In this document: positions 3,574-22,001 of the stretch, in pieces
Layout of the letters: each line of letters begins with the position of its first letter
Position numbering within the stretch: the stretch's first letter is position 1
Assembly: GCA_945905925.1 (NCBI GenBank)
Contig: CAMDQN010000021.1
Span: 1-61,860 of the forward strand
Length of the DNA: 61,860 bases
Origin: Singulisphaera sp. GP187
GTDB taxonomy: Bacteria > Planctomycetota > Planctomycetia > Gemmatales > Gemmataceae
Direction: 5' to 3'
Translations under genes and position numbers: made by a program
The notes under the pieces: generated by a model
Seen by the model: only the letters and a program-made list of their open reading frames with translations
Databases searched by the model: none
Told to the model about the DNA's origin: nothing

Positions 3574-6189
3574 TTACGCCATCGTTTCGGGGTTGGTCGC
3601 GATGAACGTGAGCGCGTCGTGCAACACGTCGTAGTCCACCATCACCGTGCCGCCGTCGGTGATCTCGCCCTTCAGCAGCATCCGTGCGAGCGGCGTTTCC
3701 ACTTTCTTCTGGATCGTGCGCTTCAACGGGCGCGCGCCATACGCGGGGTCGTAGCCGACGTGGACGACGTGCGCCTTCGCCGCGTCCGTCAGCGCCAGCG
3801 TGATCTTCCGCTCGGCGAGCCGCTTCCGCAGGTTGGTCAGTTGAATCTCGACGATCTTCGTGAGGTCCGCTTCGGTGAGCGTGTGGAACACGATGATCTC
3901 GTCCACGCGGTTCAGGAACTCTGGTCGGAAGCCCTTGCGGAGTTCTTCCAGCACTGCCGACTTCATGCGGTCGTACACCTCGCCGATGTGCGACCCCTTG
4001 TACTGGAGGATGCGCTGGCTGCCGACGTTCGATGTCATCACGACAATGGTGTTCTTGAAGTCCACAGTGCGCCCCTGTCCGTCCGTGAGCCGACCGTCGT
4101 CGAGCACTTGCAGCAGCGTGTTGAACACGTCTGGGTGCGCCTTCTCGATCTCGTCGAACAGCACCACGCTGTACGGGCGGCGCCTCACCGCTTCCGTGAG
4201 TTGGCCCCCTTCGTCGTACCCAACGTAGCCTGGCGGTGCGCCCACGAGCCGCGAAACGGTGTGCTTCTCCTGATACTCGCTCATGTCGATGCGGATCATC
4301 GCCTTTTCGTCGTCGAAGAGGAACTCCGCGAGCGCGCGAGCGAGTTCGGTTTTGCCGACACCCGTTGGACCCAGGAAGATGGAACTGCCAATGGGCCGGT
4401 TCGGGTCTTTCAGGCCGCTGCGCGCGCGGACCACCGCTTCGCCCACCGCTTGTACCGCTTCGTTTTGGCCGATCACGCGCTTGTGCAACTCGTCTTCGAG
4501 GTGAAGCAGTTTTTGCTTCTCGCCTTCCAGCAACCGCGACACCGGCACACCGGTCCACCGACTCACGACCGCCGCGATTTCTTCCTCGCCCACCTCCTCT
4601 TTGATAAGCTTGTTCGCCCGGTCGCGTGAGGAGTAAGCCTCCGCGCTCGCAAGCTTCTTTTCGAGGTCCGGTAACTTGCCGTACTGAAGCTCCGCAGCGC
4701 GTGTGAAGTCGGCGGCTCGCTGCGCCCGTTCGATGTCGAGCTTCGTCTGTTCGAGTTGTTCGCGCACGGCTTGCACTTGCTGAACGGCTTGCTTTTCCGC
4801 CTGCCACCGGGCTTTGAGGGCGTCGGCGTCGGCTTTCAGGTTGCCGAGTTCGTGTTCGAGCTTTTCGAGCCGGTCTTTTGACGCGCGATCGGTTTCTTTC
4901 TTGAGGGCTTCGCGCTCGATCTCTAATTGCATCACGCGGCGGCTGAGTTCGTCCAACTCCGTCGGCATACTGTCGATCTCGGTGCGCAACTTCGCGGCCG
5001 ATTCGTCCATCAAGTCGATGGCCTTGTCCGGTAGGAACCGGTCCGAGATGTAGCGGTTCGACAGCACTGCGGCCGACACCAGCGCCGCGTCTTTGATTCG
5101 CACCCCGTGGTGAACTTCATACCGCTCCTTCAGTCCGCGAAGGATGCTGATGGTGTCTTCGACCGACGGTTCGCCTACGAACACTGGCTGGAAACGGCGT
5201 TCGAGGGCCGCGTCCTTCTCGACGTGCTGCCGGTACTCGTCGAGCGTGGTCGCACCGATGCAGTGCAACTCGCCGCGCGCGAGCAGCGGCTTCAGCAGGT
5301 TGCCGGCATCCATTGCGCCTTCGCTCTTGCCCGCGCCGACGATGGTGTGCATCTCGTCGATGAACAGAATGATCCGGCCTTCCGAGGAAGTCACTTCCTT
5401 CAAGACTGCCTTGAGACGCTCCTCGAACTCGCCGCGATACTTCGCCCCCGCGATGAGTGCGCCCATGTCGAGCGCGACGATCATCTTTTCTTTCAGTCCT
5501 TCGGGCACGTCGCCGCGAACGATGCGCTGCGCGAGTCCTTCGACCACAGCGGTTTTACCCACGCCGGGTTCGCCGATGAGTACGGGGTTGTTCTTGGTGC
5601 GCCGCGACAGCACCTGCATGACGCGGCGAATCTCCTCGTCGCGCCCGATGACCGGGTCGAGTTTGCCGCGCTGCGCGAGTTGCGTGAGGTCGCGGCCGTA
5701 CTTCTCCAGCGCCTGATAGGTTTCTTCGGGGTTTTGCGACGTGACGCGCTGGCTGCCGCGCACTTCCTTCAGCGCCGTGATTAAGCGGTCGCGTGTGAGG
5801 CCGAACTCGCGGAGCGCATGGCCCGCGGTGCCGGTGTCGTCTGTCGCGGCGAGCAGCAGGTGTTCGACCGAGACGTACTCGTCCTTCAACTTCTTCGCTT
5901 CCGTCTCGGCTGCGTCGATGAGCTTGACGAGGCGCTGCGCGAGCCGCGGTTCGGCGTTCGTGCCGGTCACGCGGGGCAGTTTCTCCAACTCGCGCTGAAC
6001 CTTGATCGTGACGGCGTCGACCGACACGCCGGCCTTCGCCAGAATCGCCGCTGTCAGACCTTTCTCCTGGTCGAGCAATGACAGGAGGGCGTGTTCGACG
6101 TCGATTTGCTGGTGGTTGAATCGGGCCGCGAGTTTCCGCGCACCGGCGAGCGCCTGTTGCGCCTTCTCGGTGAACTGATTCAGGTCCAT
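3574..6189 (-). CDS. clpB: ATP-dependent disaggregase chaperone ClpB
   Basis: This 871-residue Hsp100 protein forms hexamers that pull aggregated proteins apart with DnaK in the cytoplasm. Domains in order: an N-terminal Clp repeat domain (starting [20 protein letters not shown]), first AAA+ module with Walker A GEPGVGKT near residue 206, a long coiled-coil middle domain (about 410-530) that separates ClpB from ClpA and ClpC, and a second AAA+ module with GPTGVGKT near residue 608. The arginine-finger region ([13 protein letters not shown]) and C-terminal D2 small domain are complete. Length fits the family. A ribosome site AAGGAAG precedes the ATG. No CIRCE-type operator was seen upstream. 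Confidence 0.97.
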
Positions 6190-20553: not shown

Positions 20554-20806
20554 TGTGTCGGGCCGCGGTCTACTTCTCACCTGGCGCGTTGAAGGCTCAC
20601 AGGGCCGCTCTGTGGTACCGCGCAAGTGTGACGCAGCGGACTTCGGTTCGCGGGTCGAACCAGGCGCTGGGGCGCAGTTGCTTGGAACTACAGAGAGAAC
20701 GGCCCTGGAACAGCCTTCCCCGCGTCGCGTGTGGTAGCAAATGCTCGGACGACGCAACATCGTCCTTGCTGAAAAGATCAGCGAGCTAAACCAACGGCCC
20801 GACACA
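20554..20806 (-). ncRNA. Structured RNA-like element, copy A (leader of the S9 peptidase gene)
   Basis: A 253-base element on the minus strand, closed by a 12-bp helix between 20806-20795 and 20565-20554. It contains blocks identical to copy B: GGACGATGTTGCGTCGTCC, CGCGGGGAAGGCTGTTCCAG, GTGAGCCTTC and GAGAAGTA. Predicted fold: P1 closing helix; a three-way junction formed by GCUC/GAGC with a variable hairpin GCUGA/UCAGC and the invariant hairpin GGACGA/UCGUCC; helix P3 GAAGGCU/AGCCUUC; and a long variable P4 starting CAGGGCCG/CGGCCCUG. It starts 40 bases after the thuA stop. A mobile non-coding element is the alternative to a true regulatory RNA. Confidence 0.65.
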
Positions 20807-20845
20807 CCAAACACTTCTACTCGCGATCGCGTCGGACGCAAGCGG

Positions 20846-21730
20846 TTATTTCTTCGGCGGGGCCGGCTTCAGGTACTTGGGCAGCGCGTCAGGATCAAGT
20901 TCGACCTTCGCGCCATCCTTTGGCACTTCCACACCCGCGGACCACAGGATGCCGTTCACGAGCATCCGCCGGTAGCCTTCCTGTGCGAAGCTCGCGTGCA
21001 GGTGTGCTCCGGTGAACGTGAATGTGCGGCCCCCTTCGGCGCGGTCGTAGGCCCACGCGACCACGTCTTGCCCGCCGGTCGGCTTGACCGCGGATTTCGG
21101 ATTCCAGGTCCGCAACAGCGGCGTGACGCCCTTCATTTCGGGGACGAACTTGTTCTTGAACAGCCAGCCGTCGTCGATCTTGAATGTCTTCACGCCGTTA
21201 CAGATCGGGTGATCCGGGAACTTGTCGAACTCCGTGATCCAGTGCGCACGTTCGCCGATGCCCTTTTCCCACGCGCCGCCGGCCCAACCGCGTGCCTTGT
21301 CGCCGAAGTCCTTCGGGTAGTCCGCGGTCTGGTGGAGTTGCACCAGACCGACCTTCGCGTCCATCATCTTCTGCACCTTCGCGAGCCGGTCTTCCTTCAA
21401 CACTTGATGCTTCTCGGCCCCGTCGAAGAGGAACACGATCGCCTTCGCACCGGTGAAGGTGTCGGCTTTCTTGGGCCAGTCGAGCGCGAGAACGGGCGCA
21501 ACGTTCGGGGTCTGCTTCAGAAGGTCCATGAGGACCGCGCAGTTCCCGACGTATTCGTGTTCGCCCGCCTTGAAGAAGTTCGACCCGGCGATGAGGACGA
21601 TCTTCGTCGCCTTCGGGTCGGCGGGTGCCTGTTCGACCGGCGGTTCGTTCTTCGCGGGCGGATCGGCCGGCGCCGCGGTCGCGAGAGCGGCCAGTGCGAA
21701 CGCGCCGGTCAGGAGCGAGAGGAATCGCAT
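20846..21730 (-). CDS. ThuA-domain protein, secreted
   Basis: A 294-residue protein with an N-terminal signal peptide (LSLLTGAFALAALATAAPA). The rest is a ThuA-like, glutamine-amidotransferase-fold domain, with IVLIAGSNFFKAGEHEY at the start, KAIVFLFDGAEKHQVL, VGLVQLHQTADYPK and a conserved end containing RTFTFTGAHLHASF. ThuA proteins are linked to trehalose and other sugar utilisation, but no activity can be read from sequence alone. The start at 21730 has AAGGA eight bases upstream. Structured RNA-like copy B ends only 20 bases before the start codon, so this gene is the best candidate for control by it. Confidence 0.85.
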   Translation of the reverse strand: MRFLSLLTGAFALAALATAAPADPPAKNEPPVEQAPADPKATKIVLIAGSNFFKAGEHEYVGNCAVLMDLLKQTPNVAPVLALDWPKKADTFTGAKAIVFLFDGAEKHQVLKEDRLAKVQKMMDAKVGLVQLHQTADYPKDFGDKARGWAGGAWEKGIGERAHWITEFDKFPDHPICNGVKTFKIDDGWLFKNKFVPEMKGVTPLLRTWNPKSAVKPTGGQDVVAWAYDRAEGGRTFTFTGAHLHASFAQEGYRRMLVNGILWSAGVEVPKDGAKVELDPDALPKYLKPAPPKK

Positions 21731-21750
21731 GGTGGGTTTCCTTGAGAGAG

Positions 21751-22001
21751 CGTGTCGGACCGCGGTTTACTTCTCTTCCTGAATCGCGGAAGGCTCACGG
21801 CACCGCCGTTCTGGCCAGACCTTAATTCTGGCGGTGACGACGATCCGCGGCGTTGATCCAGAACCGCCAGAATTAAGGTCATGGCCAGAACGATAGCGGT
21901 GCTGGAACAGCCTTCCCCGCGCGGGGTGTGACGGCAGAAGCTCGGACGACGCAACATCGTCCTTGTGGGAGACCCACGAGCTAAACCCACGACCCGACAC
22001 G
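21751..22001 (-). ncRNA. Structured RNA-like element, copy B (leader of thuA)
   Basis: A 251-base minus-strand element with the same order of conserved blocks and predicted helices as copy A. The closing helix pairs 22001-21990 with 21762-21751; it contains two G-U pairs that would be A-C mismatches on the plus strand, which points to the minus strand as the RNA strand. The variable hairpin is GUGGG/CCCAC instead of GCUGA/UCAGC. P4 is GCACCGC/GCGGUGC followed by CGUUCUGGCCA/UGGCCAGAACG after a small bulge, unlike copy A in sequence but the same in shape. It ends 12 bases before the thuA ribosome site. Confidence 0.65.

Follow-up and report, generated by a model that had tools for sequence, protein, structure and literature searches.

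Two copies of a structured RNA element, A (21752-22000, 249 nt) and B (20555-20805), lie on the minus strand of contig CAMDQN010000021.1 from Singulisphaera sp. GP187, in the family Gemmataceae; the window that we analyzed is the whole stretch 1-61,860 of this contig (61,860 nt). We propose that A and B are probably dispersed copies of the msr-msd noncoding RNA (ncRNA) of a type XIII retron (retrons being reverse transcriptase systems with an antiviral role), whose reverse transcriptase (RT) operon is found at C50 of the same genome (G000), and that copies of this kind would act in trans to give many different hairpins of multicopy single-stranded DNA (msDNA), perhaps as baits for a sensor. 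The proteins and the retron class are already known. What appears to be new is the set of dispersed copies with an exchangeable, hypervariable stem.

A covarying scaffold with the anatomy of a retron

The initial annotation of this DNA described two copies of one structured element on the minus strand, and this holds for the spans 22000-21752 and 20805-20555. Both contain the blocks GGACGATGTTGCGTCGTCC, CGCGGGGAAGGCTGTTCCAG, GTGAGCCTTC, and GAGAAGTA in one order, and a repeat finder reports two stretches of 84% identity, 74 and 31 nt long, with spacings of 1197 and 1195. R1, a covariance model for the 5′ domain that was built from 16 copies in the own genome with A and B among them, scores A at 106.8 bits and B at 94.6 bits. 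The likeness goes beyond chance, as there are 16 more copies in the same genome (18 in total, by BLAST with A and by R1).

A consensus fold obtained with RNAalifold from 14 full copies has a closing helix P1, a three-way junction P2/P2a/P2b, a helix P3, and a helix P4 running into a long hairpin. Two-sided changes appear at 37 of its 69 pairs, mostly inside the long hairpin. For the P2 domain, in an alignment of 102 matches (100 distinct rows) that was fitted to the model and is biased towards it, 99.5% of the cells are paired versus 90.2% after shuffling, and we count 177 two-sided changes versus 47.6 in shuffled and 3-17 in slid alignments. The covariation that had been proposed from A and B alone is thus borne out in the family. 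Both ends of P1 can be located in 67 of 129 copies, and there P1 forms on average 21.8 pairs (-29.0 kcal/mol) with its own partner versus 17.5 (-18.5 kcal/mol) with the partner of another copy. A terminator-like hairpin is present within 75 nt downstream of 38 of these 67 copies versus 0 of 67 when shuffled. Covariation, own-partner pairing of P1, and the downstream hairpins all support the fold given in the annotation (closing P1, three-way junction, P3/P4).

Closing inverted repeats, an AGC, msr stem-loops, and then a long msd hairpin: the anatomy of a retron is present in the element, the stem of B excepted. Canonical msr-msd RNAs such as those of Retron-Eco1 (Ec86) and Mxa1 (Mx162) have the closing inverted repeat, the adjoining AGC, the msr stem-loops, and the long msd hairpin in common with it, and the priming guanosine of known retrons lies within a conserved AGC, according to PMC6868368. 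The GTTTAGCTCG motif adjoining P1 recalls the retron priming site. Upstream of P2, the pattern (T/C)AGC is found in 134 of 156 copies (TAGC in 126, CAGC in 8), with other forms in 4 and no pattern match in 18.

In A, P1 joins a 5′ strand similar to a retron a1 (GTGTCGGGTCGTGGGTTTA, 21982-22000) to a 3′ strand similar to an a2 (TAAACCGCGGTCCGACAC, 21752-21769). Pairing by hand gives P1 of A one G-U and one U-G pair, adjacent to each other; the two P1 G-U pairs that had been assigned to B are these, and belong to A. The AGC adjoining P1 (21980-21982) offers a candidate priming guanosine at 21981, as the family-wide motif and the AGC of known retrons suggest, and the same argument points to 20786 in B (AGC at 20785-20787). 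Next in A is the msr-like three-way junction (21940-21981, with P2 GCTCG..CGAGC, P2a GTGGG/CCCAC, and GGACGATGTTGCGTCGTCC for P2b), supported by the covariation over the 102 matches, and then the msd-like hairpin (21800-21902, GCACCGC..GCGGTGC) with a copy-specific 29-bp stem in which one base is bulged. B has GCTGA/TCAGC as P2a and CAGGGCCG/CGGCCCTG as P4. The helix variants reported earlier for P2a and P4 do exist, but their labels had been swapped: GTGGG/CCCAC and GCACCGC/GCGGTGC sit in A. The scaffold of B is intact, and its msd-like hairpin (20602-20705, GGGCCGT..GCGGCCC) is mostly unpaired in the variable part. Because this counterpart of the 29-bp stem of A is largely broken, while A has a single bulge, B is probably a decayed copy.

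The element co-occurs with the type XIII reverse transcriptase

Is this an orphan RNA family? The initial annotation knew of no named family with this consensus, and Rfam gives 0 matches at gathering threshold in the window, those below threshold being to unrelated families. The absence from Rfam stands, but the element most likely is the ncRNA of retron type XIII, already classified by its proteins. The orphan reading needs this correction because one copy heads a type XIII operon and because the family co-occurs with the type XIII RT.

The own genome has three RVT_1 matches, two of them retron type XIII. At C50 (the accessory-protein profiles were scanned in G000 only), the genes come in the order HEAT-ARM_XIII (1154 bits), HEAT-ARM_XIII (2093 bits), SWIM_XIII (628 bits), and last RT_XIII (528.4 bits), the protein set that carries the retron type XIII names of PADLOC-DB (RT_XIII, SWIM_XIII, HEAT-ARM_XIII). 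One element stands directly before the first gene of this array, on the same strand. A similar layout of open reading frames with an element directly before the first gene is seen in G001, G007, G012, and G016, and all 13 genomes of the genus that could be tested, G000 included, have an element with the downstream flank of the operon head. In G002 the element has this flank and the RT is on another contig; in G003, G005, G006, and G015, which bear the element and belong to the same genus, the RT contig stops short of the operon-head position. Judged by flank in the genus, and elsewhere by distance and strand, the operon-head copy sits upstream of the RT in its cassette; the dispersed copies, A and B included, are outside it.

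In 9 of 13 genomes from other genera, some 12 kb separate the RT from an upstream element that shares its strand (the intervening genes were not read). Of the remaining four, G053 and G048 are limited by contig ends, G063 is borderline, and G085 has its element on another contig. Three genomes (G045, G069, G105) carry a tandem pair of elements upstream of the RT.

A covariance-model search in the Gemmataceae, which the initial annotation had suggested, returns many homologs. Run at E ≤ 0.01 on 41 genomes including the own, R1 gives between 7 and 36 matches (291 in total) in each of 17 genomes of the genus, out of 19, and in 0 of the other 22. Across 95 Gemmataceae genomes (E ≤ 1e-4), 30 have the element, in 9 of 39 genera, and the 13 of them outside the genus have 1-6 copies each. 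These copy numbers are lower bounds, given the stricter search filters and drafts that may break at the hairpin. Halves of one element are found at two contig ends (L031 at the end of C41, L047 at the end of C127), and runs of N occur inside the hairpins of L075, L339, and L352; for these reasons we think that the perfect hairpin probably breaks assemblies.

When RT_XIII is searched in the same 95 genomes at E ≤ 1e-100, 39 have a match, and 30 of these 39 have the element, versus 0 of the 56 others. If the RT match is required to start at profile position 16 or before, the element is found in 30 of 33 genomes versus 0 of 62 (Fisher p 1.2e-21), where the cut was chosen after the table was seen and the p-value ignores relatedness.

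That element presence tracks the RT also bears on a different use for such RNAs, as cis-regulatory (riboswitch-like) leaders of the neighboring genes. A ends 21 nt before the start codon of a gene with a ThuA domain (20846-21730, minus strand; Pfam ThuA, 53.1 bits), with no terminator seen between them. This gene lies between A and B, and we take it as a neighbor from outside the system. Together with the terminator-like hairpins after 38 of 67 copies, the association with the RT makes the leader explanation very improbable in our view. An origin as a transposon end is not favored: there is no Rfam match, and many copies share flanks across genomes (transposase genes were not searched for).

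A hypervariable stem of 29 base pairs

The long hairpin is where the copies differ. We collected 156 different elements from fetched loci (101 + 55, after removal of identical copies; of 80 named loci, 8 lack the 3′ half) and scored their stems by a procedure that ends at consecutive mismatches and cannot pass over a bulge. The stem measures exactly 29 bp in 105 of the 156. In the 129 stems of at least 25 bp, 3693 of 3722 pairs are Watson-Crick, 4 are G-U, and 25 are mismatches, and 112 of these stems are free of mismatches; the other 27 of the 156 are short or interrupted, including B (broken) and A (by the bulge only). Arm positions 3-27 show only 0.02-0.45 bits of conservation (93 independent arms). 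A stem given the partner of another copy drops from 28.7 to 6.0 pairs. In other genera, ten hairpins of the same length are found in eight genomes. Of the 20 loci from other genera, 5 yielded no located hairpin (L355 among them, though a perfect stem was seen there); the hairpin contains N at 2 loci, is short at another 2, and is longer at 1.

With one and the same folding method, stems have 6 G-U in 3701 pairs, and P1 has 198 in 1462. Because G-U pairs are lacking in the stems, these counts suggest that paired DNA, rather than paired RNA, is what matters there.

The arms are also rich in palindromes. Compared to dinucleotide shuffles, we obtain z 9.9 for 72 independent arms and z 10.1 for 85 arm cores, with coding 25-mers at z -0.3 as a control, and 30 perfect 10-mer palindromes are observed versus 6.3 expected. 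Palindromes could make the hairpins decoy sites for the host's own transcription factors. Against this, the piece of the A arm that was searched, with up to 3 mismatches allowed, matches nothing else in 19 genomes, its own included, and a second arm matches only within an element in a set of 19 genomes (its own genome, G012, is not among them). Stems differ, moreover, at corresponding loci of close genomes. We give next to no credence to the decoy explanation.

Antisense action on host targets was also considered and rejected: the two arm searches just described give no such target, and in 1.8 Mb of fetched DNA, arms give 6 matches outside recognized elements, 4 of which are elements themselves, versus 3 for shuffled arms. 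In five short copies (L034, L076, L152, L340, L343) the stem is collapsed to an inner palindrome, which resembles the outcome of a deletion (or a collapse in assembly) between palindromes present as direct repeats in the two arms.

Stems are kept or replaced as a block

When elements with similar flanks are compared, their arms match at 28-29 of 29 positions or at 18 or fewer, two pairs excepted. We selected 22 pairs at corresponding loci, some with flank support on one side and a few with flanks that are repeated in G007; these pairs show classes, not frequencies. In 10 of the 22, the arms are identical at 56-58 of 58 positions, with msr identity of 76-99% and flank identity of 42-96%. In the other 12, the arms share 6-32 of 58 positions, with msr identity of 81-100%. 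The operon head provides an example of the second class, as the downstream sequence is 97% identical between G007 and G009 and the arms are unrelated. The tandem copies of G069 (L342:1527 and 1886, a spacing of about 360 nt), which lie upstream of the RT, have the same scaffold start and loop and different stems. Among the 10 pairs with kept arms, L082 and L163 have the stem in common and not the flanks. L146/L166 show a compensatory change within the stem.

Within a genome, any two of the stems located in G007 (35 hairpins), G012 (20), or G000 (19) agree at fewer than 22 of 29 positions; no copy was dropped for this comparison, in which the G007 hairpins come from 36 loci, 3 giving none, and those of G012 from 24, and some locations are perhaps spurious. 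Related stems are found at different loci in different species. In another species (G001, at L067), two elements are separated by about 1.2 kb; toward the ThuA gene their flanks match the flanks of A and B, and their stems are different. The A/B pair looks ancestral because such a pair recurs there.

Could the dispersed copies be retrotransposed or duplicated by-products of a single retron ncRNA, selfish or dead, with repair or replication alone keeping their hairpins perfect? Decayed copies do occur, such as B, low-scoring copies on C47 and C89 of the own genome, and the 27 short or interrupted stems. There is perhaps a precedent too, since Lampson and Rice reportedly described in 1997 msDNA-like repeated sequences in the chromosome of Nannocystis exedens, a report known to us by its title. 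But by-products would not be expected to have a P1 that prefers its own partner, a covarying scaffold, a terminator-like hairpin after 38 of 67 copies, or a mostly fixed stem length. Nor would one expect the 10 pairs whose arms are kept at 56-58 of 58 while their flanks vary between 42% and 96%. We consider the by-product explanation unlikely, and favor instead functional ncRNA copies that serve the RT in trans.

A block that is exchanged whole raises the question of where new stems come from. One answer is that they are captured from foreign (phage) coding DNA, in a memory-like or antisense system. A coding-like codon signal is present in 90 arms (z 5.3, with true coding pieces at z 10.1), and the arms of L079 and L187 differ, by eye, at three sites that are all synonymous in one frame. 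Exact matches in IMG/VR exist for 2 of 3 arm pieces (one contig, five contigs, and none) versus 0 of 2 reversed controls, and the frame in which the arm is read falls within a long open frame in the single-contig match and in 3 of the five. Those 3, however, are one related protein, and the other two contigs have another longest open frame. No viral contig matched the full arm length (21-23 of 29 positions), common codons alone may explain the matches, and the palindrome enrichment is unexpected for random pieces of coding DNA. A phage-gene origin of the stems is suggestive and not established from these sequences, the numbers being too small for a claim, and we rate a memory-like or antisense system as quite improbable next to the msDNA hairpins proposed here. 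A 20-mer common to two arms (L333:4387-4406) falls within an open frame of a viral contig and is read there in frame (VEQYLRLA). The idea that viruses carry the element itself was rejected, as one scaffold pattern gave 0 exact matches in IMG/VR.

Proposed mechanism

We propose that the RT recognizes in trans the scaffold common to all copies (P1, the adjoining AGC, P2a/P2b, and P3/P4), which the sharing of this scaffold suggests, that it would prime at the AGC guanosine, and that it would copy the hairpin of each copy into msDNA. A single RT would then produce DNA hairpins of many kinds, each about 29 bp long. With less certainty, each hairpin may be a bait, that is, a different palindrome-rich DNA duplex for the DNA-binding or DNA-modifying proteins of an invader, and the HEAT and SWIM partners may respond once the bait is bound, cut, or modified. 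A stock of many baits, with hairpins replaced at conserved loci, would broaden and refresh the sensing range of the retron. The fullest version is a retron immune repertoire, in which one RT acts in trans on dozens of ncRNA genes with non-redundant baits, and whole hairpins, possibly captured foreign DNA, are swapped at conserved loci. This version we hold only tentatively, and rather doubt.

Several observations weigh against dispersed retron RNAs acting in this way. Type XIII RTs occur in 9 genomes with no element found, and in G050, G051, and G062 the RT is of the full-length type and no element matches; the sole element of G085 is not on the RT contig. With nothing seen to terminate transcription before the ThuA gene, A could belong to the 5′ untranslated region of that gene. 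P1 given wrong partners still has 198 G-U in 1174 pairs, and the G-U pairs of P1 are in part a product of the folding method. Templated repair of inverted repeats, and not selection, may account for part of the perfect pairing of the stems. Palindromes are mildly raised in the upstream flanks as well (z 2.2), and in the arms they have neither a fixed center nor a single motif or recognition site that we could find. The coding-like signal is not something that baits predict. And two pairs, L186/L188 (21 of 29) and L156/L179 (24 of 29, with broken stems), fall between kept and replaced.

Relation to known systems

Retrons are described in PMC6868368 as one RT and one ncRNA in one cassette; here most copies are far from the RT. 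Retron type XIII is represented in one G000 array by the same set of proteins with an ncRNA-like element at its head, and what differs is that genomes of the genus have 7-36 ncRNA copies each, most of them at a distance from the RT, and that the stems of these copies are hypervariable and replaced as a block.

The repeats of Nannocystis exedens are, to judge by the title, tied to retrotransposition, whereas the present copies seem to be under constraint and have distinct stems; a closer likeness is possible. Diversity-generating retroelements also tie a reverse transcriptase to sequence diversity. Here the diversity is in RNA hairpins. In the openly licensed PMC literature, taken at the level of titles and the starts of abstracts, we found no description of dispersed type XIII ncRNAs, of a replaceable hypervariable stem, or of retrons in Gemmata.

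If the proposal is right, one RT serving 7-36 ncRNA genes with different, exchangeable DNA hairpins would be a new layout for retrons, and it could account for one retron sensing many invaders. Since the length is mostly fixed at 29 bp, G-U pairs are nearly absent, and replacement is all or none, the question can be put to a test. A scaffold able to accept nearly any perfect stem of around 29 bp would also be of interest for the production of single-stranded DNA in cells.

Additional observations

A small protein-coding gene was tried as an explanation of the element and rejected. The three frames are open to the end of the hairpin in 81, 100, and 86 of 129 copies, and the MLRRP frame stops at CCGTGA in copies with a 102-nt hairpin (25 translations).

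The own genome has a second retron RT (G000:C46:23576-24694), with an RT_XIII score of 361.9 bits and a weak N-terminal HEAT match; R1 has no match in the 18 kb read around it. A second clade of type XIII RTs comes with a different ncRNA scaffold, again bearing variable stems that pair perfectly (L313:175-405, and L308 near 4804-4871), a parallel that counts in favor of the main proposal. Searching with L313:175-405 gives matches in 14 of the 41 genomes, namely 13 genomes of the genus that have this RT (1-3 matches each) and one weak match in G000. G022 has this kind of RT and no match to the L313:175-405 scaffold. Two copies of the second clade are found in L314 (9600-9990 and 12230-12530), and their stems differ.
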